Assembly: GCF_040054535.1 (NCBI RefSeq)
Contig: NC_090778.1
Coordinates: 11,178,501 to 11,242,500, forward strand
Length of the DNA stretch: 64,000 nt
Source: Antennarius striatus
Taxonomy: Eukaryota; Chordata; Actinopteri; Lophiiformes; Antennariidae
Reading direction: 5' to 3'
The notes below the pieces were generated by a model. That model made no database searches. It had not been told where the DNA came from and saw only the letters and a list, made by a program, of their open reading frames with translations. Of the stretch, positions 4,875-61,690 are shown in pieces (position 1 is the first letter of the stretch; every line of letters starts with the position of its first letter). Made by a program: the position numbers and the translations under genes.

Positions 4875-6675
4875 ATGGATACTGAGATGAAGTGTAACAT
4901 GAGCAACATGTGGAATCCCAAAATGCCCGAGGGAATGGATTTGGAAATAACTCATCATCCATTGTCAATGAAACGTGTAGTCAACCTCATCATCGCCATG
5001 GAGAGGCTGAAGGGCAGCAAGTCGGGGCCACAGTTGAGCACTGAGTTCAGAGATGAAAGCCTGCTCAACATAATCATGGAGAGTTTAGTAGAAGGTAACC
5101 ACATTAATGTGAATTTTAAATGTGATTCCATTTTACAGTAGAGTCTGTGGGTGTTACCTTATTTTTTAATTAATATTGATTTTACTTTCTTTGAATGACC
5201 TGTGTTAAGGGTTTTGAGTTTTGACAACAGAAAGGCTTATACTAAAACAATTACAAGAATATGCATCTACAATGGGCTGATAATACAAACAAAAAATCAG
5301 TTATCTGCTCAGAATTAGTCACTTTTGAGAAAACACTAATAAATTCATTGCTGTTCCTTTTGTTTCCCAATGAGATGAAAGAAAAACTTAATTGCAGCAC
5401 AACTAATCAACTGTATTTTTTATTTCCTCAGAGCGAGCCGTGTTTGAGTGCTTTTCAGCTCCAAAAGTTGAATATAGTAGGACAGAAGAGGGCCAGTACA
5501 GCGTGACCGACACCGAGAAGAGGAGCTTAGTCCTTGTCCCAGATAGTATGGAACTCCACGCAGTGATGCTGCAGGAAGGCACTAAGAATTGCAAAGGTAA
5601 TTGCAATGTGACATTTAAAAGAAGCAATTGTCTGGATGATGTAATTTAGGGATGAAAGTTTTATTTCTCTGACTAGCCTTGACTTGATATTTTCAGTGTA
5701 ATTTTTGGGGTGTATTTGACAACTCAAATTTTCCCAGAATTTCCTCTGGTATTGGATTAAAGCTACTAGTACATTTTTGTTGGAGGAAATTACAGTAATA
5801 AAAGAAAAGGCTATAGCAAATGTTGACTGCTGCTATGTAGCTACTGTCATTAAAATGACCCTGCATGCGATTTTCTCACTTCAGTTCACTTGAATATGTC
5901 GACCTATGTGCACACTGCACCCTCGGTTGATGCCAAAACCGTGGCTCTGGGCATCAAGGATACAAACCTCTACCTGTCTTGCCACAAGGATGGTGACGAG
6001 CCGACTTTGCATCTGGAGGTAAACTCATTACTCACACCATGAACCTCACATTAATATATTTCACTTTGCAGTACTTTTAACGGCCACATTGCAGAGGTAA
6101 TATTCATATAGGAATGAGGTTGCAGTCTGCAAATGTGCTGACCACTCTTGTAACTGTCCCCTAAAGTGGCCACTGAATATGCACGAAAAAAGGGTTGTCC
6201 AGAGCTGGCATTTGGTTTTTCTATTGTTGACTACAATAGCAATGTGGCAGAAAAACATACTAAATGACCTGCATCCTTTGGACATTAATTGCTGAAAATG
6301 AATTAACCAAATATTACTTTGGGTTCCTTATGAGTGCATTTCAAATTTAAGAGACATTTACATTTGACATGAGTTGAAAATTCTGACATTGATCTTTTTG
6401 CACTTTAGCCAGTGGATGACAAAGAAAATTTGTCAACAATCAGTCCGGACAGCGACATGGTGAGATTCCTCTTCTACAAACAAGACACAAGTCTGAACGT
6501 CAGCACCCTTGTCTCTGTCCCCTTCAATAACTGGTACATCAGCACTGCCCTGGAGGACAGCAACCCACTGGCGATGTGCCTGGAGGATGACGAACGCTTT
6601 CGCACCTTTAACATCCACGCAATGTCAAAGACACCAAAAATGGAATGTCGAAGTGTGTCAGCTGATGAAGTTTGA
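4875..6675 (+). CDS. il1b: Interleukin-1 beta, 261 aa, four coding exons
   Basis: Proinflammatory cytokine of the IL-1 family, made as a cytosolic precursor and acting on the IL-1 receptor. A noncoding exon of about 4325-4411 is followed by coding exons 4875-5094, 5432-5596, 5885-6018 and 6409-6675. All junctions are GT-AG and phases join (1, 1, 0). The start ATG lies at 4875, 22 bases into exon 2, in frame with the whole beta-trefoil. Residues 1 to about 100 form the acidic propeptide; the remainder is the trefoil. The family signature is seen around residues 207-219, ending in NWYIST, and the LYLSC-type strand lies in the third coding exon. There is no signal peptide and no mammalian-type caspase-1 site that I can recognise, as is usual for fish IL-1 beta. 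Length and the five-exon gene fit percomorph il1b. The next gene downstream is ckap2l, a conserved neighbour. No breaks seen. Confidence 0.96.
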
Positions 6676-7499: not shown

Positions 7500-8575
7500 T
7501 GTAATCTTCTCCTGTCAGCTTTTCCCTTCAGGGGTCGCCACAGCGAATCAGTTACCTCCATCTAACCCTGTCTTCTGTATCCTCTTCTCTCACACCAACT
7601 ACCTTCATGTCCTCTTCCCCTATGTCCATAAACCTCCTCTTTGGTCTTCCTCTAGGCCTCCTGCCTGGTAGTTCAAAACTCAGCATCCTTCTACCAATAT
7701 ATTCACTATCTCTCCTCTGGACATGTCCAAACCATCTCAGTCTGGCCTCTCTGACTTTATCTCCAAAACCTCTAACATGTGCTGTCCCTCTGATATACTC
7801 ATTCCTGATCCTATCCTTCCTGGTCACTCCCAAAGAGAACCTCAGCATCTTCATCTCTGCTACCTCCAGCTCTGTCTCCTGTCTTTTCCTCAGTGACACT
7901 GTCTCTAGACCAAACAACATCGCTGGTCCCACCACAGTTTTGTACACCTTTCCTTTCCTTTTTAGCTGAAACTCTTCTATCACACATCACACCTGACACT
8001 TTCCTCCACCCGTTCCATCCTGCCTGTACACACTTCTTCACCTCTTTTCCACACTCTCCATTGCTCTGGACTGTTGACCCTAAGTACTTAAAATCCTCCA
8101 CCTTCTTGATCTCTTCTCCCTGTAACCTCACTCTTCCACTTGGGTCCCTCTCATTCACACACATGTACTCTGTTTTACTGCGGCTAACCTTCATTCCTCT
8201 CCTTTCCAGGACAAACCTTCACCTCTCTAGCTTCTCCTCCACCTGTTCCCTGCTCTCACTACAGATCACAATGTCATCTGCAAACATCATAGTCCATGGA
8301 GATTCCTGTCTAACCTCGTCTGTCAGCCTGTCCATCACCATAGCGAACAAGAAGGGACTCAGAGCTGATCCCTGATGCAGTCCCACCTCCACCTTGAACT
8401 CCTCTGTCACACCTACACACACCTCACCACTGTCTTACAGTCCTCATACATGTCCTGCACCACTCTAACATACTTCTGTGCCACTACAGACTTCCTCATA
8501 CAATACCACAGTTCCTCTCTGGGCACCGTCATAAGATTTTTCCAGATCTACAGGACATTATGGTTGATGATATAG
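7500..8575 (-). mobile_element. RTE-like non-LTR retrotransposon, 5'-truncated relic
   Basis: Minus-strand frames encode the C-terminal half of a LINE reverse transcriptase. One frame (8219-8422) holds GLHQGSALSP and the catalytic FADD block. The next (7811-8194) holds the KYLGSTV block. The last (7552-7983) holds the C-terminal RLRWFGHVQRRD region and an Arg/Pro-rich GRPKRRF motif. The pieces are split over frames, so at least two frameshifts have broken it. The endonuclease and N-terminal part are missing, as expected for 5' truncation. The 3' end lies near 7500-7545, with the phrase 'ggggtcgccacagcg' common to this fish family. Clade assignment is from remembered motif similarity. Confidence 0.85.
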
Positions 8576-9009: not shown

Positions 9010-12000
9010 ATGGAGGAAGGAAAGACCGTACCGATGCGTTCCAGGAAAGGTCAGTAAGCTTCTGGATAGTTAGCATTAGCTAACGCACTGTTAGCATTAT
9101 CATGGCAGCACCGAATTAAACGGCGTTAAAAGACGCTGAACGTAACTTATGGATTCCTAATAATCAGTCTGGATTCATGCCTTGTTATCAAATAAAATAT
9201 ATAAATGTAAAGTGACAGCTTTATAATGTACTGTCTATGAGCAATGGCTACACTCTGAACCTGCTGGTGTGACCACGGTTTGCTTCGCCAGATGGCAGCC
9301 GTCAGAACAACAGATAATGTTGATTTTTAATGGTTCCCATGGCCTTATACCGACACGGTTCCTGTGGGTGTCGGGTTCCTCCGTGGAGAACAGCACCATC
9401 CTGAGCAGAATTCAACCTCTGTAGCGCCTCACGGCTTGCGGGGGTACAGCTGCCAGACCAGATGGTGAATCAGTCAGTCGATGCATATGTAGAAACTGCA
9501 GGGTATTCCGGAGTCCACATTGATTCGACATTGCAAGAAGGAAGAGGTGTTGTCTAGTTGTGTTTACAATAGAGTCTATGTGTTGACTCCAAGTTCACTG
9601 ATGTGAACCCTGTGGAATCCATGGAGAGTGTATTTCTCCTTCTGTCTCCTTTATAATCCACAGTCAGCCCTTTATTTTGCTGACACTTGAACGATGTTCA
9701 TGTGTTGGTATCAAGATCTCACCCGCACAGCCACGGATCTGCCCATCAGGAAGTTGTTTTGTGTGTGTGTTGATACTTTTTAATGGCTTGAGACATTCAC
9801 AACAGTTTCCTGCTAGAGGGCTTTGGCAGTGCTCTTCCTGTTCCTCCTCACATGAAGGAGCAGATAGCAGTCCTGCTGTGGGGTTCCTGGGCTTGCACTA
9901 GGAGGTAGTATGACTAAGCCACTGTGGCTCAGTGTAAAGTAATTGAGGAAGCCACAAAAAGCCACATTCTGTGTCCAAGACAGCGGCTTGCTATAATAGC
10001 AAGTGGAACTTACAAGTAAACATTGAGTAATACCAAGATTCAAAATTATTAAAATCAAAGTTTCTAAGTCAGGGTTGGGGTGTCTGGTGGTCCGGGTGGG
10101 ACTTGCAATTGGACATTGAGTGATGTTTTGAATTGACTGTGTCATGGTGAATGCAAGTTTTCTATTGTTGGGGGGTATAAAACCACGCTCGTCGTAGGGG
10201 TGTGTGAGGGGGATACCCCCCCCCCCCCCACACACACACACAGGGGAGGTCCGTGTGGCGCCCCATGGGAAATTTTTTAGAAAATGGGGTTGTTTTCCTG
10301 CATTCTGGTGCATTCTGAGGGCAAATCTTCTGTTTAGTTTACCTACAAAAATACACTAAAGTCAATAGTTCAAACTTAACTATCTTTGTTACTTTCCTAC
10401 TTTATGCAGGTATAAATGTGAGATTCAACGGTTGAGGACTTGCCTTCACTGTGTGAAGATGCAGTCATACAAGGTGTTACTCAGTGTTTGCTTGTGGGTT
10501 TTACTTGGACTAGAATACATTTTAACTTTGACTTGGACAACACCATTGGTATGCCATAGTTTTGTTTTGTTTTTTTAATTCGATATTGTGATTTTTCATT
10601 TCAATTTAAAAAGGCATATTAAATAGCAAGGGAGGTGAATACACATTTGCATGCATCGCTGGTTATTCCTGCTGGTCATAGACATCAAAAGTCTTAGACT
10701 ACAAAAAAGTATTGATAATATCTTTCATTCACTTTCTGATTGGTCTGTCACCACTCCTACCCCCTCTCAGTTTTCACCATTTGTTGTTCAATTAGAATTT
10801 TTAATGCAAAATCTACTATAAAACACTCTATTCTCATTTTTTCTTTTTTTCTTTTTTTTCTTTTTTTAGCAAGATCTTTTATATATTTCAATGTGTGCAT
10901 GTGACTGTCACCAGTCCTCTCTGGGAACTAAATTGTCAGTCTTTGTTAGAATTTCCTATTGTGAGCCAGAGAGGGAAGTGCTGCACCCCTGTGAGTTAAG
11001 GGGGAAAGCAAAAGGAGACAGGGAGAGAAAACACAAACAAGGTAGTGGATAGACAGGCAGTGCTGTAGGAGTGAAAAAGGTTTAGGCTGTTTTATTCTAT
11101 CTTAGAACTGATATTTCAACACCAATGTTACAAAACATCAGATTAGTGGAGGTCCTGATAATATAGAATAGGTCACCAGAGGAAACCAGTGCAGGAGGAA
11201 GATAGAGGGCATAAGATTGTGATGACTGAAGTGAGACTCATCAGATTCTGATGGGACCCAATGGTTCTCAATAATTGGACTCGACAGGAGCTGGTAAACC
11301 CTGACCCAACATGCATGTGTGATGAAACCAACACCCAGATAGGCTACCAGAACTCATCAGGGCCATGCCAGCCGAGCACTCCCAAACCCGGCAGCCAGGA
11401 GCATCCAGAAGCCATCACCCGAAGAGCCACTGTGGGCACCGAGAACCACGTAGACCCAGGAAACCAAAGGAGGCAAAGGCCGCCACCACCAGGGCGCACG
11501 GGACACGCCCAAGGGGCACAGGGCAGTGTTGTGACTCCTGAGAGCAGATACCTTTTAATATTCAGGTTTTGACGTATTGCTACAGCCAGTGGTTCAATAA
11601 ACATTGCGAACAATAGGGGAGATAGAGGGCATCCCTGTCTGGTTCCTCTTTCTAAAGTGAAATTTGGTGAAATTATCCCATTAGTGGTGACTGTGGCCTT
11701 AGGTGAGTTATATAAGGTTGATACCCACTGGATGACTCACCAAAGCCAAATTTATGACGCAATGTGAAAAGAAAATTAAGGCTTTTTTCATCGTCAAGTG
11801 ATATAACAATTGCTTTCCTGTTGTTGCGCTGTGTCAAGCTAATCAGATTGAGTAGTCTTCTAACATTGTTGGTAGCGTGTCGACCCTTAATAAATCTTGT
11901 TTGATCATTAATAATTTTCTCCAATCTGGGGGCAAGTGCTTTAGATATTATTTTGATGTTGATGTTGATGAGTGAAAGAGGTCGATAGCTAGAAGGATGA

Positions 12001-15000
12001 GTGGGATCTTTATCTGGTTTTAATAACAATTTTATTTGGCTGTATTCATGTGACCACTTATGTAACCATTATTTTTCATTTCTATTACTACTCTGAAGAA
12101 GAGAAGGGCTAACACTGACCAGAAATGTTTGAGGAATTCAGCAGGGAAACCATCTGGACCAGGTGCCTTGCCTGCTGGCATACTGTCTAGCGCACTCTGT
12201 AATTCATTGATGGTCAGAGTAGCATCTACGATGTCTCTGTCTTCAGATTTTAGTTTGGGTAGGTTTAGGTTGGCGAGGAAATTGTGTATATCTTCTTTGT
12301 TCGGTTGTACAGAAGTTGAATATAAGTTATGGTAATATCTATAGAAGACGTCATTAATTTCTCAAGGTGATTGTGAATACTTACCAGAGGGATCCTGGAT
12401 TGTTGTTATTAAAGATTTTTCTCTGTTGCGTTGGAGTTGGTTTGCAAGAAATTTGCTTGATTTATTGTTATGCTCAAAATTGTTCTATCTCAGTTGTTGT
12501 TGTTGTAAGAATTCTGTTTTCTTTGACAGGCTGTTATTAAGATTTAGTTTTGCATTTTGTAGTTCAGACCATAATTTTTCATTTGGATTTACAGCATAAT
12601 CCTCACACGTTTTGAGTTTTTCTTCCATTTTTGTTTGCATTTGTTGTTCCTGGTTTTTTTTGAATGAGGAGTATGATATTATTTTACCCCTGATTACAGC
12701 CTTCCCAGTTTCCCAAAGTAGGGGAGGAATTGGGGAATTCATTATATTTTAAAAATTCTGCCAATTCTTGCCTTATTATTTTATCAAATTCTGGATCTTT
12801 AAGCAGAGAAATGTTGAAGCGCCAAGTCTGTGGAGGTTTATGGTGATTAACTGTTTGTAGCCTGAGGGATATCGGTGCATGGTCACTAATAATGATTGGA
12901 TGAATTCTAACAGAAGATTTATGTGCGACATTTTCTTTCAATCGATTGTCCTCGCCTTGTCGTACACCAGTTCGTGGGTTTAGCTTGTAAAAAAAGAATC
13001 CTGTTTTTTTTTATGGGGCGAGAGGCGGTCATGACCCGAGTGCATATTTAATGATCAGGAGCGTTAGGGTCACTTCGGCTATTTCCGTCGGCACGCGGAA
13101 ATAGCAGCATGCTACTGTTTTCTTATGTTATCGCTCAGGGATTTTCGCGAGTCCAAAAAAGTTGTAAGTTTTAGAATTTTTTTTCCTAAAAATAGATAGA
13201 TAGATAGATAGATACTTAATAAGAACGCCACTGTGGCTACACAATCTAAAAACATTGTAGCCATATGGAATTTACTTCACCTATGGCGAAGTGGCGAATG
13301 GCTAGCGCAAGCCCAGCGTTCATGCCCTTCTATTGACCTGCCCAGCTCTGCACAATGATTGGTTTACTAGTATTTCCTCTGTAGCCTGTGGCTGTGCTGG
13401 GGGACACAACAAACCTTGACTACTTGTAAGGATGGGCCATCCTAGAGAGGGTAGACTACTTGAACCTAACATGTTACCAGCATTGACAACGATACTTGCA
13501 AACACAAAGCTAGAGAAGAACCTGTGAAGATGGATAAGGAGACAACAATTGTCTGTGTCCACTTCATGCAAAAATATTATTATTGCATTGCATTTGCCGT
13601 CACTTGGTTTTGCACCAAATCAGGTGAATGTGATTCACAATCACTTGCGCTTCTTATACGAACAAACTTGGTTTCCTGAAAGTTTAACTGCCTGTAAGTT
13701 ATACTGTGATCATTCAGTCTTATCTTAATTATTTTGAGCACTACCCTGAAGCTAAATGTTAAAATGTTTATGCTGAATTTATGTGGTATCATATGCTCAG
13801 TTATTCAGACAGAGTATTCATTTCCACAAGAGGTCATTGTGCAACTACTGACAAAATTTAAGAGTTCCGTCCAGTGACTTTTTAATTTGGACAAGAAGAA
13901 TTTATCTGTACTGCTTTTTAATTGTTGTCAATATTTTTGCTTAAAGAAACTCTAAATAAACCATTCATTACAATAGGCTTCTGTATATAAAGAACACTAC
14001 CTATATGTATGCATACATGTTTATTAATCACAGTTTATTGAGCCTCTTATATAAAGTTTACAGTTGACTTAGTGGAATATACTATATTGAAATTATTGGG
14101 AACTGTAATGAATTCTTCTGTAATTTCATGTTTACAGAGTTACGCAAGCAGAAGCTGATGGAATATCTGGAAACAAAAGAAAGGCTGAAACAGCGCACAC
14201 CTAAGTAAGAAAGAAACTCTGTTTATACACACACAATGTGTTTAAATGTTGTTTATTTTATCTTCGATAAATGAACTCACTGTTTCTGTGCTACAGGCTG
14301 TATGTTCGTGAGGAATGTAAAGTTAAGGAGCCTGTGACCTCTACACTTAAGGTGTGCATAGGAAAGAGAGTAAAACTAAACTCTATTCTAAATTACAACA
14401 CTGTTGAATGATTCCATGTTTCTGGTACTTAGGTGATCTAATTTTGCTTGAAGTGGTCATATCTAATTATCAAACAAAGCTGACACATACTGTCTTCACA
14501 GGTTCTGACAGAAAAAGAGAACAAGGCACCAGCTGACAGACTCAGGTGTAACCACTCTAACATTCCGATTCAGGCTGCTCAACCCACAATGCACCGGGCT
14601 AGAACAGCACTTAGTGTCAATAACAAAGTGAATGTTAAAAGCAACATCCAAACTGGACGGCAGAAAAACAATAGTCAGTCTGAAACATCTGGGGGAGCAC
14701 AGCCAGGACATAATGACAATTTTACTCTCATGAAAAGGTGTATCACTGTGTCCTCCAAACCCAACCTGAACACAGTCAGCCATTTCAAAAAGCAGTCAAA
14801 ACCAGGAATAAAAGCTTCAGGCAGACCATCTTCAAATACAGCTATGACAACATCAACTATCAGATTCAGCAGCAGCTCAAATGCAGTTAGTGACAGGATA
14901 AGTCTTGGCCCTCTCATCAAAACTAAAACAGGACTCATTCCTGCAGTCATTCAGCCAAGAAGAATTCAAAGCCAAACACAAAAAAACAGGTCTACCACAA

Positions 15001-18000
15001 CAGTTGGTATCACCACCATTACCTCTAGTTTTGTTGCTAACAAGGTGCGACCCACCTCATCAACAATCTCTCTCTGCAAGGGGTTTGCCATGGCTCAGAG
15101 GAAAACGTTACATATCACCGCTCCAAATAACCCTGTCAAAAAAGGTTCAATTGGTCATTTGACTACAACAGCTCGACTTAAAGTTGAGGCCGAGTCTAAT
15201 TCTAAACCCCTTCTGAGTAAAGTTTCTCAGGTATCTTGTAAGAGGCAACTATCAAGTGGAGTGAGAACAACTTCCAAATCCAATTGCACAGCATCATCTA
15301 GTAAACCAGAGGGAAGAGTGGGGATGTCAAAAACTAATAAATCAATTGGACTCAACAAAGATAAGTGTACAACGCAGAAATCTGAGCTTGAAGGGGAGAA
15401 AAATGGCCAACAGTGCAGGTTTACCCTGAGAACTTCATTTGGCCCTGTCAGTCGGTGTAGCTCTAGAGCAGCCAGTGGAGCAACACGAGCAGTTGTGGTT
15501 GAATCGGCAAGGCAAAGCAGAAAGTGTACAGAGACATACAGTGACAGTGGAAGAGTACACCGCTCAGCTAATGCCCCATCGCACCCAAGTGCTCCAGTGT
15601 TGTCACAGACAGCACCACAACCTTCAAGGACCATCAGCTGTACAGACGTGAAGACAATAAAGATCCCCATCGGGATAGTCCCGCAAACTGAAGGAAAGAA
15701 ACTGAGTGCTGCCCAGGAAGAAAGAATGTAAGTGAATCTGTACAATTACCAGTAAATAAGTAGCATCTTATGTCAACCATGACACAAACAAACCAACTGT
15801 CCATGCATTAGAATCTTTTTCAACTTCTTTCAGACAATGAGCCACAATAACTCAGATTTTGATGTACTAGATGACTCTCAAGTACACTGTTATATTAATG
15901 TACACTGCATTTGGACAAACCTTCTCATCTAATGGTTTTCTTTATTACCATGACTATATACATTGTAAATTCTTACTGAAGGCATCAAAACTATGAATGA
16001 ACACATCAGATTGAGTTGTGAACAGAAAAATGTGAAATACCATGTGCCCTCGTTACTCGCAGTTAATGCTTTCCAGGAACCACACACGAATAACGAATTC
16101 CGCGATATAGCAATAAGCTGTCTTATTATTTACGGTAATTTAAACGTTTATGAACCCTCCCTATACTGATATTAAACCACCTTCTATCTGTATTCCCTTT
16201 TCCCACACTCTTGTGTCTCATGCAAGGGCACTGTGTTCCGAGACTCACGGAACATGGCACACTGTCAGCCAATAGAATGCGCGTATAGTATCACATGAAT
16301 ACCTACTAAAAATCCGTGATGAGGTGAAGTCGCGAATGTTGATGTGTGGATGCGCGCGGGATTACTGTATGCCAAAACACGTTTTATATTCTAGACTCTT
16401 CAAAACTGCCCGTTTGTTTTGATTACTACTTTTCACACTGTTGACATTCTCTCGATAGGTAGTCATGAGGTAGTCTTCATGACCGCCCTCCAGAGTCTGA
16501 GTTCTGTCTGGAGTTTCTTCCTCAATGAGGGAGTTTTTCCCCACCGCTGTCGCTTATACTTGCTCAGGAGGGTTCTGTTGGGTTTCTCTGTTAAAGCGCT
16601 TTGAAATATCTGCTGGTGTGATTAATCGCTTTAAAAATAAACGTTGATTGATTGATATTTTTTTTATTTTGTATGCTGGTCTGATCTCCAAAGGGAGATT
16701 AAGAGAGCACACTCCAATTAGTTAATTCTTCAATCAAACCCATGCATACATATTAGTGTATACAGGCCCCTGTAGCACACGCACATACACAAAGGGGCCT
16801 ATAGGCATGCAATGGGAGGTAGAGTGGCAGGCAGCTCCTTCCTATTGTGCCCCAAATGATAATCACCAGAAATGGTTTTCCCTTAGTCTTGAACGAGTTC
16901 CCAGTGCCCTTGTTGACCCTTTTACCTACACTTTGAGGCCTACCTCATCTCAGACCGTTGAAAAATAAGTGATTGTCCAACTAAACTCAGACCAGACTGA
17001 ATGTGTCACTGCAGAATGTTGTGGTACCCATGCTGGTTCAGTGTGTCTTCAATTTTGAATAAATTCTCCAACAGTGTCAGCTGCAAAGCCTAACACACCA
17101 TCACAAAAATTCTTGGCATACAGTATAAGTATAAATAAACATATTTAAACACATGACTTTATTGACATGGTATTCAGTGATGCAGTGGTTCAAATCCAAA
17201 CCACAAACATGTAATAAAGGGGAACAAGTGGTCTCAGTTTTTTGCTTGTGTTGGACCTGTGACTAATGTGAGCCAAATTAAGGTCCAGGTAGTTGGCTTA
17301 TCAATGATAGAATCTGTGTGAGTCAACACAGAGATGGTTTCTACTGACAGTGACACATAAAAGTGCGTCTATTAAGGTCCAGGCAGTTGGCTTATCAATG
17401 ATAGAATCTGTGCGAGTCGACACAGAGATCGGTTCTACTGACAGTGACACATAAAGGTGCGTCTATTACAGTTCCTGTAAAATAGGAAATTCCTATCCAT
17501 GGGTGTCTGTACCCTACATACAAAAAATATACTGTTCTACTATGCACAATATGATGTAAAATTAAAAAAAAATCAAAGAAGGAAACTGATTTTTTGTTCA
17601 TTATACGGTGAAATGTGTTCTATAATTGCTCATTGACTCAATAAAATTACCTTTAATATGATTAATCCTTGGAATATTTGATCAAATTCCCGATTAACTT
17701 ATCTAATGAGACAGACTGGATGTCAGTCAAGCTTTACACATTCTATGTGACAACCATTTTCGTTCAGTCTCCCTGTACGCTGTTGGATGTAATGGACCTC
17801 TGTGTAGAAAGATTCTGTTCATTGTGCCAGTCACTTTGCTCATGCCCCAACATGTTAGTTTGTGATCATTCACAATTACAGTTGAACACACATTTGCTTG
17901 GTACATCCTGTTGCCACACATACCGGTAACCCTGCAATACAAAAGATCGTGAGACAGCAATTTATTTTATTTATTTTATATACTGATTATAATCCCCCGA

Positions 18001-21000
18001 AGGGAAATTAGTGGCATTCTCCAGTAATCAATCACATGCATATATATTAGTGTGCACAGGCCCTGAACACACGCACAAGGGGCATGTAGGCATGCAGTGG
18101 GTGAGTGGCGGGCAGCTCCAATATGGTGCACCCCAATTTAACAGCATTATTCCAATCAGTGAGTCGAAGAGACTCCAACCCCTACGTCTGTTTCTGATGA
18201 TTCCTCTCCCTCTTACATGTCCTGGATATTTGATACTCAGGTAATTACTACACCTTCAGTGATTATTGACTTACATTATTGATTTACTGAAGTGAACTTT
18301 CCAAAAGAATCCTACATTTTCTGTGGTGATCGATAAGACTGTCTGAACCCTAGGCATCAGACATTTCACCTTATTTCTGGTTAGGGTTAAGTTAGGGTTG
18401 CCTTGGCAATAAGGACCATTGCTTTCCACTTTCTCTTCTCTTGTTTGTGTGTTGTCCAATAAAATACAAGATACGTCAAAATATGTTAATTCACTATCAT
18501 ACCTTCTGTTTTTTGATTTGGCATCAAGGAGAAAACTGAAGGAATGGCGGGAAGCCAAGGGCATTTCCTACAAGCGTCCTCCGATGCCGGTCAAGCCTCT
18601 GGTCAGGCGCACTGTGGCCACATGCCAGCCTTTCTGGACCACCATGAGGGAGGAGGATGAAGCCAATTCCCTCATCTGTGCAGTCGACAGGTCCCTGGCT
18701 GATTGTATCAAGCTGCTTGGAGAGGTGCCTCACTGAGTGCTGTTTCTTCCTTTGTTCTTTGCTTACGTAGTGGTCGTAGTTCCCATGGCATGGAATTTAT
18801 TTAGTGGGATCTATACTAGAGAGTGAATGTCTAGTACAGGGCTAGAGCCCTGGAGGACTATTTTTCTTTCATAGTATTTACACCTGGGTATACACAAAAA
18901 GTCATGCAAATCAAGTCAGATTTGGAAAGAAAAAGAAGTAAATGGGTCAAGAGGGATGGAGATTTAAAATGTAATTTTCTAGATCATAGGCACTTTGATT
19001 GATTCATACTAATGTAATTTTTTTCAAGTGTTTGTATGTGTCCCATCCACAGGGTTGTGATCTAGAGCAAGTGAAGGCAATTCTGTCACGGCTGCCAGTG
19101 GTGTCTCAAAAGTTTGTCAAATACTGGATCTGCCGTGCTCGTCTGATGGAGCAGGAGGGGAACCTGGATGTTCTGCCCTTGTTTGAAGAGGCTGTAAGCA
19201 TTGTGTTGGAGGTAAGACACCCATGATTGATTTTATGCATGTTTTCCAAATGAGCTTTGTGCAAGTGGAAAGTAACTCATTTGTTACATCCCGCGAAGTG
19301 GTGATATACTGTATCTGTCAGTGTTTGTGTGTTGGTCCGTCCATCCACTAAACATCTTCACAACCGTTGCAGATAGGAAGATGAAACAAAAAGCACATGA
19401 CTCAGGCAGCAAAGGGGATGAAAAACAAGATGATTACCTTGACCTTGAGAAAACTAGGTCAAGGCTAAATTTCAACTTTTGTACACTCAGGAACCGGATA
19501 AGATGGAAAGATGAAACAAAAGGCTTTATTCAGGGAGGCAAGGGGATGAAAATTAGATCACAACCTTGACCTTGAAAAACTAGGTCAAGGTCACATTTTC
19601 ACTTTTATAACTTTTTAGGTTCACATCTCTGAAACGTCATGATAAATAGAATGCACCAGTTACATGTTGAATCATGGGTCTTTTATTAAATGACCCTGAC
19701 CTTTGAAAGTAGGTCAGGGTAAAACTTTGAATTCAGGGGTGTCGTGGGATGTTGCAGTCTCTGATTGCCTTATGAAATCTGTATTGTCAGTTTCTTTTAC
19801 CTGGAATCCAAAAGTATAAAACCGTCTACTATACTATCTTGTCACTATTTTGTCATGATCGTATAGAATTTCTTTATACAATCCTTGTCCGTCAGAAAAA
19901 TCTTGTTCGGTTGACAGTCGTGATTTTGACACCTTTACTGCTTTATGAACATTTGAATGATGGTTTGACATGATAATATCTCTCGTTTCTAGTTTATTGC
20001 CGAAGGAGAAATCCATTATTTCTAAACATGAATCAGTTTCCTTTGACTCACTGTAAGTCATGTTGATGTGTGTGTGTTTCAATTATTAGTAATGAAATGA
20101 ACATGTTTTAACATGTCAGTTTGCCTTTCATAAAGTCCGATTTTTTTTGTCGTTTCTTTAGAAGCTGAAAAGGGACAAATTATTGCTCTAAGAGGGTCCT
20201 TTCACATTTTTGTTAATCACTGTAGAAAACAGTAAGATGATTGGTGTTCAGTTGGATATAATTTACGATCTAACCACTTCATATAACAAAATCCTGCAAT
20301 AGAGCTTTGAGTTTGTTTGAAAATTAAAATCTTTTGTGTCACCTTTGCTTCTGCCTTTCTGTTTTATTAAGCCGGTGGACAAGCTGCGGACAGTAGTGTT
20401 TGAGATTCTTAAGAAAAAGGACGAAATCCAAGGTAGTTGATTTGTCTTTGTCTGTTTGGTTTTATTCTTTAAGATGTTATGAAGTATTACAGTGCTTGTA
20501 ATGAATAGATACAATGTTTTTTACCACATAACATTCTTTTTGGCTCATACTGCATGTGGCTGATTATCATGGTCCTGTAAATAGTAAAAACTGTGCTACA
20601 TTTGAATAAATGTAGGATTTACATTTATCCAGTGAAGTCAAATATGACTCCAAAGGAGTGCTAGTGGTGCTCTGTACCAGCCAGGTGTGTAAATAAGCCA
20701 TTTTATGCAACGGTGACATCTAAATGAATAGCTAATTGTTAAGCTAATCAAGTTTTTAGATTTAATTTATTGATATAATTTATGTTTTTTAGAATTTGAA
20801 AAAAAGGAGGCAGAGGAGGAGGAGGAGGGCCAGATTTCCCCAGCTGAAAGTACCCCTGATAGTATGAACAACTCAATGAGGACTCATGAACCTGTCAGAG
20901 CTCTCCTTTGTGGGGAGAAGGGAGTCTCATCTGTGATCAAGTACAAGATCACAGCAACACCTGGGTATGTTTGCCTTCCTATTGTAAGTTGCATTGACTA

Positions 21001-22795
21001 TGTCTTTAATTTTTTTCATTTCCCGATGTTGGTGCACTCAATTCAATCATCAGCCTCTGATCTATTGATGAGCTATCATTCATGCATTACACCTTTGCGT
21101 ACAGTCATGTGAAAAATTAGGTCACACTATTAAAGCCAGTATACTTTTTAAACATATTTGGACATGTGGATAGTTAAAACCAATTTTAACAATACCGAGT
21201 TATCCAAGTAATGTATCTAAACAAAAATGACGAAAAGCCTTTTTAAAACTCTATGTAATACAGTAACGGCCAATTAAAGCCTGGATCTTAGTCCCATTGA
21301 GAGGCTGTGGGGTGACTTGAAACAGGCAGGAAACCCATCAAACATCTCATGGCTGGAAGAAATCTGCATCGAGGGTAGAGGCAAATTTCTTCAGATCGAT
21401 GCCAGAGACTGGTCGATGGCTATATTTGTTTGTATCTTTTGTTTGACGAGTAAAACACATGTAATTTTTCATGTTTAATTGCAGTCAAATCCCTTTCTTT
21501 CCCAGAAATAAATAAAAACAGAATTTGACATTTATATGCAAACATGTCTTAATGAAGAGCTGGTTATTTTGTGGGATGTCACATGACTATGTTTCATGAT
21601 AAGTCTCACAATCTGTCACAGTAGTTTATGGTGACTACTAGCTTACATTGACACTTAAGACCCAATCTCAAATCTCCTATTAACCCCAACCCTTTGTTTT
21701 TAGATTGGCCTAAACTTTCAATCTGCCCCTCAAAACAGAATAAGAGGTATCAATTGAAATTGTTTTTCTAGGAAATGGGTCATCAGTAGATATGATGGTT
21801 AAGATTATTATACTTTGGGAAATGAATATAAAATTGAGGTTACCCCCTCCCACAGCAGTTTGGCAGCATATTATTATAAAGGTTTTCTGGCACCATATAA
21901 GCTAGTGACAAAACAGACCCAATTTGCTGGACAGAGGTAACTTTAAAAGTACTACTACTGTACATGCAAATAACTGTTTATTGTCCAAACATGAGAACAG
22001 TGAGTAAATGAAGAGTGATCTTTCTAAGGTGCACATTACAACAATCAAATTACACATTCCTTTATAGGGCTCAAAATTAACTTTTTTTTCTTGGTAGCAC
22101 TGGTGCTCCCAAATGTAGAAGTTAGTAGCACCAGCAAAGACTTTAGGAGCACCTTCCCAAAAGCAGGGCAGTGACGGAGCGATAGAGACCGCTCTGTCCA
22201 TCTCTGTTCTGCGCCTCTCTCCCTCGCCCAGGAGAGCAGCCGCAGCTGCGCTCTCATTGTTTCCTGGCAGGAGCGCGGTTTCACAAAAAAGGCGCACCAG
22301 ATTTTTTTCCCTAGTCACACTGGTGCTCCCAAATATACTTAATAGTCGCACTGATAAAAATTTGGGCGCATATGCGACCAAAATGTTCGCAATTTCGAGC
22401 CCTGCTTTACATCTCCATCATGAAGACATTCCTATGAAATTTTCATGTCTTTATTTTCATAATTTTCCATCAGTGGCCCTCCAAGTCAGCAGAGTGAACC
22501 GGCTCGGGTCTACGGCCAGGAGGTTCGCTTCTTCACTCCAGTGAGACGTTCAGTACGAATTGAGAGAGCATCACTTCGATACCCCGCGTCTCTCCAAGAC
22601 CATGACGTCTGTGTGTCCTCTTACAATGACCTGATGTCCATGGAGGACGAAGAGAGAAAGGAAGAACAGGAGGGTAGGGAAAGCGACTCGGGGGTGGATG
22701 GCTCGCCCTCATACCTGTATGTCTACCGGCAGAACGAAGCGCTGAAAGACAAGGTGCACATGCAGCTCATCAGCAATGAAGCCCTTCAGCTTTAA
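9010..22795 (+). CDS. ckap2l: Cytoskeleton-associated protein 2-like, 765 aa, nine coding exons
   Basis: Mitotic spindle and centrosome protein, the vertebrate CKAP2L (radmis) orthologue. Coding exons: 9010-9049, 14138-14204, 14297-14351, 14502-15727, 18529-18724, 19053-19211, 20372-20432, 20793-20964, 22474-22795. Every junction is GT-AG and the phases give one open frame. Exon 2 carries the N-terminal block with KLMEYLETKERLK, matching the family's N-terminal KLQEYL motif. A KEN sequence at residues 59-61 could be the APC/C degron known for the mammalian protein. Large exon 4 is a basic, Ser/Thr-rich disordered region. From about residue 462 on is the CKAP2 C-terminal domain, with KLKEWREAKG, YKRPPM, YWICRARL and FTPVRRS motifs. 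Mammalian CKAP2L is of similar length. Intron 1 is about 5.1 kb and holds an antisense LINE relic. Exon 1 (13 residues) is the least certain part, supported by ATG, donor, phase and the promoter just upstream. Confidence 0.93.
9050..11260. other. First part of ckap2l intron 1
   Basis: Intronic DNA with no convincing exon of ckap2l. It holds a C-run plus CA-repeat at 10216-10242. At 10411-10548 there is a TATA-like box followed by a short ATG frame with a hydrophobic start, reported as a low-confidence finding. The rest shows nothing recognisable. Confidence 0.5.
11260..11534. repeat. GC-rich segment of unknown origin inside ckap2l intron 1
   Basis: This block of about 275 bp is much richer in G and C than its flanks, is Pro/Gly/Arg-rich in translation, and abuts the LINE relic that follows. 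It looks like inserted repeat DNA of the kind found next to fish LINEs, but I do not recognise the family. No protein function is claimed. Confidence 0.4.
11535..12960 (-). mobile_element. L1/Tx1-like LINE relic, antisense in ckap2l intron 1
   Basis: Minus-strand frames in order along the element are: the end of an APE-type endonuclease with SDHAPISL (frame 12684-12941); a Lys/Glu/Gln-rich linker (12485-12742); and a reverse transcriptase N-terminal half with SYRPLSLIN and FIKGRHATNN (11673-12029). It ends with the FAMFIEP strand that follows the RT GxPQG-type block (near 11560-11613). Frameshifts and missing parts at both ends show it is dead. It lies antisense to ckap2l. Clade assignment rests on motif memory (SYRPLSLIN plus GRHxxNN is typical of L1/Tx1). 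Confidence 0.85.
13190..13215. repeat. Short (GATA)n tract in ckap2l intron 1
   Basis: About six GATA units followed by 'tacttaataag', resembling the degenerate 3' tail seen on fish LINE-derived repeats elsewhere in this window (compare 32352-32500). The remaining intron to 14137 shows nothing recognisable. Confidence 0.6.
16040..16367. mobile_element. Non-autonomous MITE, copy A (ckap2l intron 4)
   Basis: About 328 bp flanked by TA on both sides (16038-16039 and 16368-16369). It is closely similar along its length to 44628-44964 in h2az2 intron 4. Shared phrases are GCGTTCCAGGAACC-like near the left end, 'ctgatattaaaccacc' in the middle and 'gatgag' near the right. There is no coding capacity. 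TA duplication suggests Tc1/mariner-type mobilisation; the superfamily is inferred. Confidence 0.7.
16478..16662 (+). repeat. SINE-like fish interspersed repeat
   Basis: It contains 'gtttcttcctcaatgaggg', 'agggttctgttgggtttc', 'gcgctttgaaatatctgc' and ends in an ATTGATTGAT tail near 16646-16657. I recognise this as a very common fish short interspersed repeat, but not its formal name. Intronic, no gene. Confidence 0.65.
16676..16975 (+). repeat. LINE-tail-like repeat, copy 1
   Basis: It begins with 'atctccaaagggagatta', which resembles the '(at)cccc..gaggggaaatt' tail of fish LINEs, and continues through 'gcatacatattagtgtatac' and 'ggcaggcagctcc'. The segment 17985-18200 has the same order of motifs, so the two are copies of one family. 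The small open frame at 16756-16968 is incidental. Confidence 0.65.
17277..17464. repeat. Tandem duplication of a 94-bp unit (two copies)
   Basis: Units 17277-17370 and 17371-17464 are near identical, differing at a handful of bases and one small indel. Each contains 'ttggcttatcaatgatagaa' and 'ctactgacagtgacacataa'. It sits in ckap2l intron 4. This is a direct tandem duplication of otherwise ordinary-looking DNA. Confidence 0.9.
17985..18200 (+). repeat. LINE-tail-like repeat, copy 2
   Basis: Same family as 16676-16975: 'atcccccgaagggaaatta', 'gcatatatattagtgtgcac' and 'tggcgggcagctcc' occur in the same order. Both copies lie in ckap2l intron 4, with the same orientation. Confidence 0.65.
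19292..19760 (+). repeat. Repeat with AGGTCA palindromes, copy A (ckap2l intron 6)
   Basis: It starts near 'cccgcgaagtggtgatata', then 'gtccgtccatccac', then 'gcagcaaaggggatgaaaa', and carries three Tc/AGGTCA inverted units. The best is ACCTTGACCT at 19563-19572 with AGGTCAAGGT at 19582-19591. The segment 35224-35545 has the same motif order. No coding capacity. Family name not known to me. Confidence 0.75.
21102..21588 (+). mobile_element. Tc1-like transposon relic (ckap2l intron 8)
   Basis: A left terminus CAGTCATGTGA at 21102 next to TA, and the inverse motif TCACATGACT near 21579-21588, mark the ends. Inside, one + frame near 21285-21400 reads LDLSPIERLWGDLK, the C-terminal block with the catalytic Glu of Tc1 DD34E transposases. 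The rest of the transposase is deleted, so this is an internally deleted, inactive copy. Confidence 0.8.
22065..22404. mobile_element. Non-autonomous hAT-like element (ckap2l intron 8)
   Basis: The ends are inverse to each other: TAGGGCTCAAAATTAA at 22065-22080 and the complement of CAGGGCTCGAAATTGC at 22389-22404. Sub-terminal 'agcactggtgctcccaaat' occurs near both ends ('cacactggtgctcccaaat' at 22315-22334). The internal part is GC-rich. A CAGGGCTCGAAATT terminus is familiar from vertebrate hAT elements. I could not confirm an 8-bp target duplication. Confidence 0.65.
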
Positions 22796-24022: not shown

Positions 24023-24030
24023 TATATAAA
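24023..24030 (+). promoter_or_regulatory. Possible TATA box of the IL-1-like gene
   Basis: TATATAAA about 345 bp upstream of the proposed start codon. If used, the first exon would run from about 24055 to 24384. It is in AT-rich DNA, so chance occurrence is likely. Confidence 0.3.
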
Positions 24031-24374
24031 TAAACAAAGCAAAACACAGATGCCTTAAAGCCTACTACAGATGTCAACATCAGAACAAACTTAGAGTATT
24101 TAACAGGAGAGGGTTATTCGTGTCTTTGCCGGTGAGAATAGCTGCAGACCTAATTCAAAGCCATTTTACTGTTCTGATATTTCCATCCCATTGTTCTTGT
24201 GAACTGAATCCTGAGGTGTCAGTCCTGCTGTCAGACCGCCTTCCTCTGCTGACTCAACAAATCTGTCATTTAAATGTCTCACTTCACTGTGGTCCAACGA
24301 GCAAAGTTTGCCCCTGCAGCAAGAGACACCCACACAGACACACAGGTTTCAACTCGACAGCTACTGAAGAAGTC

Positions 24375-25425
24375 ATGACAGAGGGTAAGGGGATAAGAAC
24401 TTAAGTCATTGACTATTTCTTAGTTTTTCACTGCAGTGCTTTTACTCACTCTCTTTTTACTGTGACAATGTTACTCTTGAGTTAAGGATATGCATGTTTT
24501 CCCCACTGTGTCATGGTTCTATGACATTAATGGTGTGCAGCATTTTATTGTAGAGTGAGGCTATAAAATGCTGTTTAGTAATTGATTAACATTAATTAGT
24601 CATATGTTATAAACTAATCTGCCTTTGTTGACATTTTTACTTCTAATTATTTTTTAATGGTATTGTATAAACAAAGTTTCACTGATTACTGATAAAGTGA
24701 TTGTCAATAATGATTCAAAACATGTATGGCTACATTTGAATAGACAATGACATTCTTATTTTTAAGAATGTTAGATTTGAAGTCTTTAAATTTAAGATTT
24801 CAAATCTGTAGTCTGCAGCATTTAATGTATATATATAATTTTTTTCTTACTTATCTAAGTGTTTTCTCTTGGTACACAGGAGTGTACAAATGTGCTCTGA
24901 AGGACAAAGATGGGAATTTTGTGGAGATCCAGGATGTCTGTGGTAAACTGAAGCTGTGTAGTGTTGCGCGTCAAGATGAAAACAACAACAGTAAATTACA
25001 CTTCCTAAAGTTCAATAATATTTTAAAATAATAGATCAGTCATTTTTTGCGTAGATTTGGTTTTTGTAATATTATTTTATTTAGGATTAAGTTGGACAAT
25101 GAATTTGATTTTTGACATCTGACAATGACATCTGATTTTTATCTGATGTTGAATGTTTGTAGATTTGGATCTTGGATTTATTGACTCAAACAGTCAGAAT
25201 TGATTTATTCCGTCTGTCCTTAGCACCTTTGGTGGAAGTGAGAACGCGTTCAAGAAACAGTGTCAAGCAGTTGGCTTTACAATTTAAGCATAACTCTTCC
25301 TCATATGCCTTAAAGGTGGATGGAGAAAGACTAAAGGTAAGGAAACATCTGAGTCACTCACTGTATTCTTGATTCCAATACCCTGATTTTTACCTTCAAC
25401 AGGGACTTTATGGTTTCATTGACTT

Positions 25426-25510
<85 letters not shown>

Positions 25511-25827
25511 TGACCTGTTAATAAATGTGGCTGCGTAACGTGACTCATAGATAAACATCTTTCATTGTCAACTCCACCATAAGTATATTTTTTTAAACTG
25601 TAGTTTTTTGTCTCTCTTAACAGTTTGACCATGATTTTGAATGCAATACCTCAGGAGATATACCTGATTGCTACTGGTTTCAGAAGGAAGGCCACACTGA
25701 ATATTATGGCCTGCGAGCTGTGATTAATCCTGATTATCAACTGTTTGTGATGGAGAAAGAAAGATTTCACATTTTCTGCCTCAGTAAAGACGCATCAGTC
25801 CAGGTGACAGAAGACCAGAAAGAGTAA
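24375..25827 (+). CDS. Divergent IL-1 superfamily cytokine-like protein, 145 aa
   Basis: Predicted small beta-trefoil cytokine, function unknown. Coding exons 24375-24384, 24880-24990, 25224-25336 and 25624-25827 join with GT-AG borders and consistent phases (1, 1, 0) to one frame. The start is the ATG giving MTEG; the frame stays open further upstream but has no earlier ATG, so an upstream exon is possible. There is no signal peptide, no membrane segment and essentially no propeptide. Motifs: CGKLKLC near residues 25-31, alternating strands such as LALQFKHNSS, and a C-terminal block (about 92-132) with WFQKEGH, NPDYQLFV and EKERFHIF. The block aligns loosely with the IL-1 family signature (x-P-x2-hydrophobic-L). 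EKER after the strand also recalls IL-18. The final coding exon (68 residues) matches the family habit of a large last exon, and il1b lies 18 kb away across ckap2l. It could be fish 'novel IL-1 family member', an IL-18-like or an antagonist-like gene. Confidence 0.66.
25427..25509. repeat. (GT)n microsatellite in intron 3 of the IL-1-like gene
   Basis: About 41 uninterrupted GT units, ending about 115 bp before the last exon's acceptor at 25624. The HTHTHT frames on the minus strand are artefacts. Confidence 0.97.
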
Positions 25828-26384
25828 AGGTGTGTCATCATTCTTATGTTAAGTTGATTTTTGATTTTAATAATGCAGCTACTTTAATGTTCTTAAAATG
25901 TTGTATTTAGTTTGCTTCAGTCTCTCCTCTCTCTTTCTGTCCCTCATTCTGTTCCATTTAAATCCATCCAGTCTTTGTCTAAACTCTTTCACCATGATGC
26001 CAGCATTTATTCAGAAATTTTATTTGTGTTTTTTGCTCCACAGACATCCATCACCTGTTCAGCTTCATCTTTTCCCATGTCAGTCAAGCTTTCCTGCGTC
26101 CTTTGTCCTCCACCATAAGGGATTCCAGCTCTGGACTTCTTCAGATCATTATCAATTCTCAGTATCATTCTTAGTGGCAGAAGTGTGTATAAGTTGTGGA
26201 ACCATACTACCTATTTCTTAATCCTAAGAATGTTACTTTAATGGAACTTCTTATTCAGTAATTTGGCATGTAGATTCTTTGTTAAACCCGTTGAATTAAA
26301 TTACAACTGGAGCTCCAAACCTACTGAAACAAGCTGTTTTGGGTTCTTGTATTGGGTTCACTTTTTGTTAATACTTAATACATT

Positions 26385-26390
26385 AATAAA
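26385..26390 (+). promoter_or_regulatory. Poly(A) signal of the IL-1-like gene
   Basis: AATAAA about 560 bp past the stop codon, followed by A-rich DNA. A possible 3' UTR intron (gtgtgt at 25831, acceptor cag ending 26043) would shorten the UTR; that is speculative. Confidence 0.45.
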
Positions 26391-26669
26391 AAAAATTCAA
26401 CACATCATGATATCTGGTAATTACTTTATCACAAAGTCTTAGATGCTTAATGAAGATTGTTAATCAAGGATGTTTTTCCTGAGAAATAACGATTGTGTAT
26501 ACTATATTGGTGATGGTAGTGGCTGATGAGTCTGCTGGGACTGTTGAAATAAAGCCTTCATTCACCATGTGAAGTCAGGCCGATTATGGAAGGAAATATT
26601 CAGATAGATGCGAGTAACTGAAGAGAGCAGTTTATATCTCAATTGATGAACCCACTTTCTTTAAAGAAA

Positions 26670-27951
26670 CATCTGCTGGATGCACTGGGATGCATCTTCA
26701 GTGATGTATCCTGAGGTCATTGGGTGTTTCGGGTCTCGCAACATCAGACACCCTTCCCCAGGTGACCCAGCCGGGGTAGATTATGCCCCGACTTGCGTCC
26801 CAGTAGCAACCCACGGATCTGCCCTTTTGAGCCACAGCCACCTCATGGCTTTCGCTGCGGCTTCGCTAGAGGATTTAATGGCCCTCTTCTTGGCCGCCCC
26901 TGTCCAAACAGCCTAGGACTTTGCAGAGAACGTCCTACAAAGCCTCTACAGCCAGCTTCTATTGGCTTGTAGAATGTCCTCCAGCCCCTGCCCCTGCACT
27001 CCTCCACCAGTTCCTGATATTTGGCACATTTCCTTTCGTTGGCTTCCTCAATGCGATCTTCCTAGGGCACTGTCAGTTCCAGCATGATCAGGTGTTTTGA
27101 AGCCTCAGAGGTGATGATCATGTCTGGCCGGAGAGATGTTGATGCAATGTGCTGGGGGAACCTCAGCTGTTTGACACCTTACAGTCCCTGGAATCCCTGT
27201 ACTGTAGGGCTTCTCTTGTACATGCCACCTTGAATTCTTCAGTGAGCCCACTGAAGGGTAGCTGGAGGGTGTTACTTGTCCCATACAGGGCAGTGCTGTT
27301 GAGGCTGCGGGGAAGGCCCAGCCACTTCCGGAGAAAGCCACTGATTTTCCTTTTGAGAGATTCCACAATTTTTACCAGGACTGCATAGACGAGGAGAGGC
27401 CACAAGACTCTGGGCAGAATGGAGTGCTGGTAGAGCCAGGCTTTAAATCTACCAGGCAGGCCAGACTTGTCCACCCTGGTGAGCCACGCTCCTAGTTGCA
27501 CACCAAACTCCTGGATGGCAGCAGAGTCTTTCAGGCTTGAGTCAAAGATCTTCCCCAAGCTCTTGACTGGCTGCTCCGTGATGGAAGGGATTGCAGTTCC
27601 AGAGATCAAGAACCGGTACTTATCCATCACCTTCCCCCTCTTTAGTACCATGGACCTCGACTTGGAGGGCTTGAAACTCATCCTAGCCCATGTGATGAGT
27701 CTCTCCAATCCCTGCAAAATCCACATGCTCCCTGGGACCGATGATGTTGAGATGGTAAGGTCATCCATGTAGGCTCTTATAGGGGGCTGGCGAACACCTG
27801 ATCTGGATAGGGGCCCTCTGCATTCCACCTCTGCAGCCTTGACCACCATGTTCATTGCCAGTAAGAAAAGGGTTACAGAGATGGTACAACCTGTTATTAT
27901 TCCTTTCCAGAGGCAATGCCAGCCTGATGTTACCAACCCTAACCCAGACAA
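26670..27951 (-). mobile_element. Retrotransposon relic with YMDD-type reverse transcriptase
   Basis: A 262-residue minus frame (27163-27951) begins in the RT palm with KGIITGCTIS, then AYMDDLTIST carrying the catalytic Asp pair, then the primer-grip and thumb region (KYRFLISG, SLGKIFD) and LRKWLGLPRSL. Beyond a frameshift near 27160 the minus strand continues with RPDMIITSEASKHLIMLELT and KCAKYQELVEECR, a C-terminal region met in the same family. The N-terminal part before KGIITGC is missing. I recognise the protein family from fish and invertebrate genomes but cannot name its clade with confidence. Truncated and frameshifted, so inactive. Confidence 0.85.
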
Positions 27952-29188
27952 TAATTGTAAGAAATTAAGGTTTGAACACGTGCAAAGTGTGAATGATAAA
28001 ATTATATGGGATAAAATATGCTTTGTAATAAACAGTTATACATCGAGGAATTGTGTCCTGTGAATGTGGAACTGTGGTATAAGTGGTTAAATAGTAATGG
28101 TAGTTTAAAATATGACAATCTTTCACACTGCCTTCCAAACACTGACGTGTGTTGACACAGACATTTTCATTATGCAAAAAGTTTCAAACACATTTGTCAA
28201 GAGTATTTGAAGAAATGCTTCAACAACTTCAATAGATCATGCTCGTAAAATATTGCAGGTAAAATGAATGAAGATTTAGAGACTGATTTTAGATTTCTAT
28301 TTTGTCCAGTTATTTTCAAGGGCAACCACCATCCATGAGATTCAGGTGTCTGGATATAAGCCATTAAATGTAAGTGTGATATTCAAAAGAATGACAGAAA
28401 TAAGAACACAGAAAAAAATATGATGAGCTACACTTTCAGAATCAATCACATTTAGAATGCTGGATGCTAGCCCTCCTGCATATTGTGAACACAAACGCTG
28501 TATCAGTTGAAAAATATTGAAATGATGTCAGGTCTCTGCTGTGTTATTTCTTTTCTAAATTAAAAGGCAAACCTGATGTTGCATTATTTATCCTCCAGAG
28601 AAGAGAATGTCTCGCAAAATTGTGTCTTAATTTTTATGATAGCATTTGTAATTCTGCTAGAAATGTGTTATCCAGTATACGTTCATATCATGGAGCACTT
28701 TGTATTATATATAATATGCATGGAATAAGAGTATATTATTGTTACTTTGATAAGTTTATGTAAATTAGTGTTTTTTAATTTTTTATACTTAAAACTTCAC
28801 TCCTGCATGGTGAAAGGTATGTAATTTATTCGACAATTTTTTTGTGGAATGCCTCAGCACGTCTGTCCCTCATCATGCCCTCTTCTTTTGCAGTATGAGT
28901 GAAGAACAGGAAATTGAATGCATACTGGGAGAAAAGATAACATACATGAGTTTTATCTTTGATAAGTTGATGAACTGATGCCTACTTAAAGTCTTCTCAT
29001 GCTACATAAATAAGTTTATATAATATTTAAATATCAACTGAGCAAATTCCAATTCCTGTCTGCTAGTTCCTCAAAGATGTATGAAAAGTATCGGAGCAGA
29101 AAAAAAAACCTCTTGCCAGTTAAATTTTATTTGTTTACTGATTGAACATTTTTTGTAATTGACTACATTCAAATCACTACTGTATGTG
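27952..29188. other. AT-rich intergenic DNA
   Basis: No gene, no recognised repeat ends. A small minus frame at 27965-28177 shows no similarity I can name. Confidence 0.5.
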
Positions 29189-60179: not shown

Positions 60180-61610
60180 TTACCCAGTAGAAATAGAGTA
60201 GAGTACAGTATAGAGTAGAGTATAACTTAATTCATCCCTTAAGGGGATTCCCCATCAGGGAAATTAATTTCTCCCTCGCACACAGCACAGTAAGTACACA
60301 AAACACAGAAAAAGCACACAGAAAGCACCAGCACATAGAAAGTAGTACAACACCAAATAGAAAGAGTCATACATAACCCATCAAGAATATACAAATAGAA
60401 AATCATGAATCATTGCCAGAGGGTCCAGCTTCACCCCGACCACCAAGCTGGCCCTCCTGATCAGCTTCTCCAGCCTTGGAAAGATCCGCCTTAGTCACGC
60501 TCCCTCCCCAACAAACCACAGCGAACGACAGTACGCTGGCAACCACAGACTGATAGAACATCCACAGGAGCTTCCTTCAGACATTGAATGCCCTCAGCCT
60601 CCTCAGAAAGTACATCCTGCTCTTCGCTTTCTTGTACAGCTGCCTCGTGCTTGTCCAGTCCAGTTTGTTGTCCAGCCACAGCCCAAGATATTTATAGGTC
60701 TGCACAATCTCCACCTCCTTCGTTCCTATCAGAACTGGTCTAAGTTGGGGTCTGTTCCTCCTGAAGTCAATGACCAGCTCTTTAGTTTTCGAGGTGTTGA
60801 GCTGCAGGCTTTGCTGTGACACCAGTCAACAAAGTCCTTCACCAACTATCTATACTCCTCTTCCTCATTGTCCCTGATACATCCCACGATAGCTGTGTCT
60901 TCTGCGTACTTCTGGATGTGACACAGTTCTGAGTTGTAGCAGAAGTCCGCCGTGTACAGGGAGAAAAGGATTGGGGACAAAACAGTGCCCTGTGGAGCAC
61001 CGATGCAGCTGACCACAGTATCAGACGTAGCGTCCTTTAGCCTGACGAACTGTGGTCTATTGGTGAGGTAGTCTTGGATCCAATCAACCAGGCCGGGGCC
61101 CACTTGCATTTGTAGGAGTTTTTCCTGAACTATACAGGGCTGGATGGTGTTGAAGGCACGTGGAAAATCCAGAAAAAGGATCCTCACACTGCCGCTTTCC
61201 TTGTCCAGATGCGAATGAGCTCGGTGTAGCATGTGGAGGATTGCATCTTCCACGCCGACTTTTTCCCGGTAGGCAAACTGTAAAGAGTCCTAGGCATGTT
61301 TCACCTGAGGCCTGAGGAGACTGAGGAAGAGCCGCTCCAGAGTCTTCATCAGATGCGATGTGAGCGCCACCGGTCAGAAGTCGTTCAGCTCGCTGGGCCG
61401 GTTCTTTTTGGGAACTGGAACGATGCACGACGTCTTCCAGATTGTGGGCACCTTCCTGAGAAGCAGGCTCAGGTTGAAGACCCGTTGTAGCGGTTCCCTG
61501 AGTTCAGCGACGCAGATCTTGAGTAGATGGGGGCTCACCCCATCTGGTCCTGCTGCTTTATTTGTAATATTAAAAATATATCGCGCTTGGAGTGTCTCCT
61601 GCCTGTCGCC
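60180..61610 (-). mobile_element. Rex1-like non-LTR retrotransposon relic
   Basis: The minus strand encodes, in broken frames, an RT: AAGPDGVSPHLLK (near 61540), then LFLDFPRAFNTIQP, GAPQGTVLSPILFSLYTADF and QKYAEDTAIVGC (frame 60846-61253), then SKTKELVIDFRRN and KYLGLWLDNKLDW (frame 60577-60822). The catalytic block reads YAEDTA where an active copy would have (F/Y)xDD. The 3' end near 60200-60270 has the 'ttaaggggattcccc' tail typical for this family. The 5' part is missing. Frameshifts near 60840 and 61260 show it is dead. Confidence 0.88.
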
Positions 61611-61690
61611 CACAAGTCACCTGGGATAGGCTCCGGCAACCCCCGTGACCCACGAAAGTGGAATAAACAGTCCAGAAGATGAATGAACAC
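61610..61690. repeat. Fragment of the tRNA-headed SINE-like family
   Basis: 'ctgggataggctccggcaac' followed by 'gtgacccacgaaagtgg' matches the tail part of the family seen at 47.9-48.4 kb. It abuts the Rex1-like relic. Confidence 0.55.

Follow-up and report, generated by a model that had tools for sequence, protein, structure and literature searches.

What is the small gene that lies across ckap2l from il1b in the fish Antennarius striatus, and does it descend from a gene for an IL-1-family ligand? The window analysed here is a 64,000-nt stretch of A. striatus DNA, and "window protein" refers to the 145-residue product of its gene at 24375-25827 on the forward strand. We consider it reasonably probable that this is a small protein-coding gene with an IL-1-family ligand gene as its ancestor. 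It would then probably go back to an old duplication at the il1b-ckap2l locus; it has no exons for a propeptide and retains little of the family signature. Because its sequence has diverged so strongly, kinship with the IL-1 family is likely but not proven, and formal membership is not claimed because neither the Pfam test nor the signature test recognised the window protein.

Gene structure and exon-by-exon profile fit

The four exons that a preliminary description had joined in phase were confirmed in their coordinates, splice sites and open frame. Coding exon 1 (24375-24384, 10 nt), with the start MTEG, and coding exon 2 (24880-24990, 111 nt) are each followed by a phase 1 intron, coding exon 3 (25224-25336, 113 nt) is followed by a phase 0 intron, and coding exon 4 (25624-25827, 204 nt including the TAA) carries LRAVINPDYQLFV at the place where the IL-1 signature belongs, as well as the residues EKER; all four are on the forward strand. 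The three introns are all GT-AG and the joined frame runs uninterrupted to the TAA. Upstream of the start the frame is open from 24030 (open stretch 24030-24404), and MTEG holds the sole in-frame ATG there. The protein had been described as having neither signal peptide nor propeptide, and indeed, when the sequence was read by eye and not with a signal-peptide program, both a hydrophobic N-terminus and a propeptide-sized extension were absent.

When we compared the intron structure with that of il1b, the phases were the same (1, 1 and 0), in the pattern of the IL-1 family, and in a MAFFT alignment one inner intron position was equal in the two genes while the other was two columns off. The gene also stands at the il1b-ckap2l locus, a locus of the IL-1 ligand family. 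For all three trefoil-sized exons (3/3 rows), the best fit is to the matching exon of the IL-1 profile; an equally good fit was reached by 167/4000 shuffles for exon 2, 158/4000 for exon 3 and 23/4000 for exon 4, with a combined Fisher p of ~8e-4. This architecture, together with the exon-by-exon profile fit, supports an origin within the IL-1 family.

A second copy of the gene, on contig C23 of the same genome, is a segmental duplicate. Its exon 1 is identical to that of the window copy in 10/10 nt, exon 3 was not found in it, and its final exon is IL-1-like in the register of the signature (0/4000 shuffles as good with the exon profile, 5/5000 with a hidden Markov model, HMM). The IL-1 signature block reads FES..PGWF(L/I)(C/S)T. 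It is better kept in the C23 copy, LRAVVNPDYCLCV, which only 25/5000 shuffles equalled on a signature matrix, than in the window copy, LRAVINPDYQLFV, for which 946/5000 shuffles scored as high; the earlier remark that the signature is nearly lost was thus borne out. In-frame indels between the copies were dropped as proof of coding, since lengths that are multiples of 3 occur in exon 4 (2/2) and also in the 3′ flank (3/3) and the 5′ flank (3/11). Intron 3 of the window gene contains a long GT repeat (~25429-25508, forward strand), which was not seen by eye between exons 2 and 4 of the C23 copy. Within ~2.5 kb of that copy lies a tandem array of ~2.2 kb units with repeated open frames (C23 ~1958000-1970700; loci L009, L010 and L011).

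Whole-sequence comparisons and selection

Several results weigh against descent from an IL-1 ligand gene, beginning with the loss of signature in the window copy just described and with exon 2 of the C23 copy, which misfits its profile exon (565/4000 shuffles as good). The profile check that had been proposed gave a divided answer: there was an exon-wise fit, but the window protein was recognised by none of the whole-sequence methods tried. In Pfam, where il1b (3.4e-15) and human IL-18 (2.4e-35) passed as controls, the window protein has no match to IL1 (PF00340), nor does the final exon of either copy. Its sole match, to V-set (E 0.016), is below the cut-off and was not found in the C23 exon, so that an immunoglobulin identity was rejected. 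Searches with the window protein returned only chance matches among PDB sequences (phmmer) and none in NCBIfam, and BLASTP against il1b gave no significant similarity (E 1.5). Smith-Waterman comparison with five IL-1-family proteins did not beat shuffles, the best being IL-33 (73/1000 as high); the power of this comparison is low, as even IL-33 fails when set against IL-1B (258/1000). With hhalign, 157/200 and 160/200 shuffles scored as high as the window protein against profiles of 11 or 13 family members, while among held-out controls human IL-18 reached a probability of 87 and IL-33 was weak (probability 3, 2/200 shuffles). Of the human sequences in the profiles, that of IL-18 alone was verified. 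Using both copies, hhalign gave a weak match (probability 0.64, 5/100 column shuffles), and with the HMM 2306/5000 shuffles scored as high as the whole window protein. No relatives were found in bacterial and archaeal genome contigs, viral contigs not being scanned.

These failures would be expected if the gene were unrelated to IL-1 ligands and stood near il1b by chance, encoding some other small protein or a trefoil from a different family; its phases and exon fit would then be coincidence or the mark of a shared fold. We regard this as rather unlikely. It gains from the behaviour of FGF2, another trefoil, which scores 14.7 bits against the IL-1 HMM and is found weakly by hhalign (probability 17 and 29, 0/200 shuffles). 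FGF2 windows reach the Z of exon 4 in 5/20 and 5.1, as high as the C23 exon, in 2/20, so that the exon test fails to separate IL-1 from other trefoils. However, chance or a shared fold would also have to account for the fit of the final C23 exon in the signature register, for the matching profile exon being best in all three rows, and for identical phases in a gene beside il1b. The proposal that the gene belongs to the IL-1 superfamily is partly supported: phases, exon-wise fit and the C23 signature speak for it, recognition of the whole protein does not.

It is distinctly less probable, in our view, that an IL-1-family gene is decaying here, the window copy being a recent pseudogene or nearly so that is open by chance, like its duplicate on C23, where no exon 3 was found. 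Such decay would agree with the lost signature positions in the window copy and with the substitutions between the two copies. Synonymous divergence (dS) is 0.22 and nonsynonymous divergence (dN) 0.18, with a ratio of 0.79 overall, 0.41 in exons 1 and 2 and 1.08 in exon 4, and dN/dS is not different from 1 (Fisher p 0.44). Moreover, the coding exons are 86.5% and 80.6% identical between the copies, similar to the 3′ flank (84.5% and 79.9%). Given this ratio and this resemblance to the flank, selection on the protein is not demonstrated; one damaged copy would yield a dN/dS of this kind. Against decay, the frame and all splice sites are intact, and only 0.2%, 1.7% or 9.2% of neutral simulations, depending on the assumed rates, left the window copy without a stop, a frameshift or a splice change, although this argument is weakened because openness is what drew attention to the gene. 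Since a second copy exists on C23 and intactness since the duplication is improbable under neutrality, the window gene is unlikely to be a product of chance.

Known ligands and a possible function

In the available portions of PMC4929537 and PMC7144542 the only IL-1 ligands named for fish are IL-1beta (types I and II), nIL-1F and IL-18, and the former, a review, gives fish no orthologues of the remaining mammalian members. No gene was described at this place among the matches listed from open-licence PMC papers. Teleost type II IL-1beta, represented by il1b in the window, is like the window gene in its phases, its place beside ckap2l and its exon-wise profile fit, whereas the window gene differs from il1b (261 residues) in its length of 145 residues, its lack of propeptide exons, its largely lost signature and the absence of significant pairwise similarity. 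IL-36RN retains the signature as PGWFLCT, in contrast to the window gene. In layout, IL-36RN of birds and mammals is alike, with four coding exons, no signal peptide and no obvious prodomain in the part of PMC4090809 available to us. IL-18 shares an EKER near the signature block, and an IL-18-like EKER had been claimed for the window protein. The block is present, but by eye its distance from the signature exceeds that in human IL-18 by one residue, which makes it weak evidence; kinship with IL-18 through EKER was rejected on this register and on a pairwise score of 25, below the shuffle mean of 29.8. Teleost nIL-1F (nIL-1Fm) is an already known IL-1-like ligand of fish, additional to il1b and il18, and is reported to act as an antagonist (PMC7144542, PMC4929537, in part). 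That the window gene is nIL-1F is very improbable, since lumpfish nIL-1F has seven coding exons with predicted caspase-1 and thrombin sites (PMC7144542, in part) and the gene for the teleost antagonist stands at a locus other than that of il1b (PMC4090809, in part), whereas the window gene has four coding exons (protease sites were not searched for) and stands at the il1b locus.

If the gene does derive from an IL-1-family ligand gene, its product would most likely be a beta-trefoil of mature size made in the cytosol without a signal peptide, and it would be released upon cell damage or by unconventional secretion. Being of mature size and without a signal peptide, such a trefoil would act after release, like IL-36-type ligands, and not after caspase cleavage of a propeptide; no proteolytic activation would be needed for it to bind a chain of the IL-1-receptor type. 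With most of the signature lost, a simple mimic of IL-1beta seems less likely than an antagonist or a ligand for a different chain, and the product would more probably tune or compete with IL-1 signalling than copy IL-1beta. The sequence does not distinguish between agonist, antagonist and decoy.

More tentatively, and as something possible rather than probable, the gene could represent one more lineage of fish IL-1 ligands in addition to il1b, il18 and nIL-1F, namely a constitutively mature trefoil, made without a propeptide and encoded at the ancestral il1b-ckap2l locus, that would have diverged under receptor or pathogen pressure. It would be a candidate ligand for a fish IL-1-receptor-type chain without a known partner, for example IL-1RL1. 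Fish possess IL-1RL1, while IL-33 is reported from mammals only, and ligand-independent action of IL-1RL1 is favoured in the available part of PMC5861070. If real, the gene would be an immune signal that lacks a description among the literature matches listed. Given an IL-1-like gene without a propeptide at the ancestral locus, both the matter of ligand partners in fish and the origin of the IL-36-type gene layout could be tested directly.

Neighbouring genes and other searches in the genome

The yardstick gene il1b (4875-6675, forward strand) has coding exons at 4875-5094, 5432-5596, 5885-6018 and 6409-6675. Its end lies 17.7 kb from the start of the 145-residue gene, in agreement with the ~18 kb across ckap2l given previously. 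The exons of ckap2l occupy 14484-22795 on the forward strand, with roughly bounded ends; CKAP2_C matches fall at 18530-22792 in three of the four stretches scanned, and the long stretch 14484-15728 has no Pfam match. The order along the locus is il1b, ckap2l, the 145-residue gene and a PurA-domain gene, with a sulfotransferase gene also on the far side. Judged by this neighbourhood, the il1b of the window is type II, as il1b, CKAP2L and PURB form the fish type II neighbourhood in the available part of PMC7144542, which also reports CNNM for the type I il1b locus.

Upstream of the window gene, TGACTCA at 24250-24256 (forward strand, ~125 nt 5′ of the ATG) matches what we take to be an AP-1-like consensus, a match to consensus only, and no such match was found in the scanned upstream stretch of the C23 copy. 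A candidate polyadenylation signal, AATAAA, lies downstream at 26385-26390 (forward strand), with a further AATAAA at 26548 and ATTAAA at 26295.

Elsewhere in the genome, a human IL-18 query found nothing and an il1b query found no clear second il1b; these searches do not show absence, because each exon was searched separately and human IL-18 is a distant query. Weak matches at C13, where the sequence is presumably that of an LRR-type gene, and at C7, with stops inside, were taken as chance. C15 was considered as a whole-genome-duplication partner and rejected, there being no il1b and no copy of the window gene in 40 kb on one side. This region, C15:15848098-15889000, carries the paralogue closest to the PurA-domain gene, with 93% identity, and beside it, on the side examined by eye, are frames that we take to be CNNM-like.

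Just downstream of the window gene is a reverse transcriptase remnant (27166-28035, minus strand; RVT_1, 2.1e-8), and more reverse-transcriptase-like frames were seen by eye on the minus strand at 7552-8434, 11344-12361 and 60577-61616.
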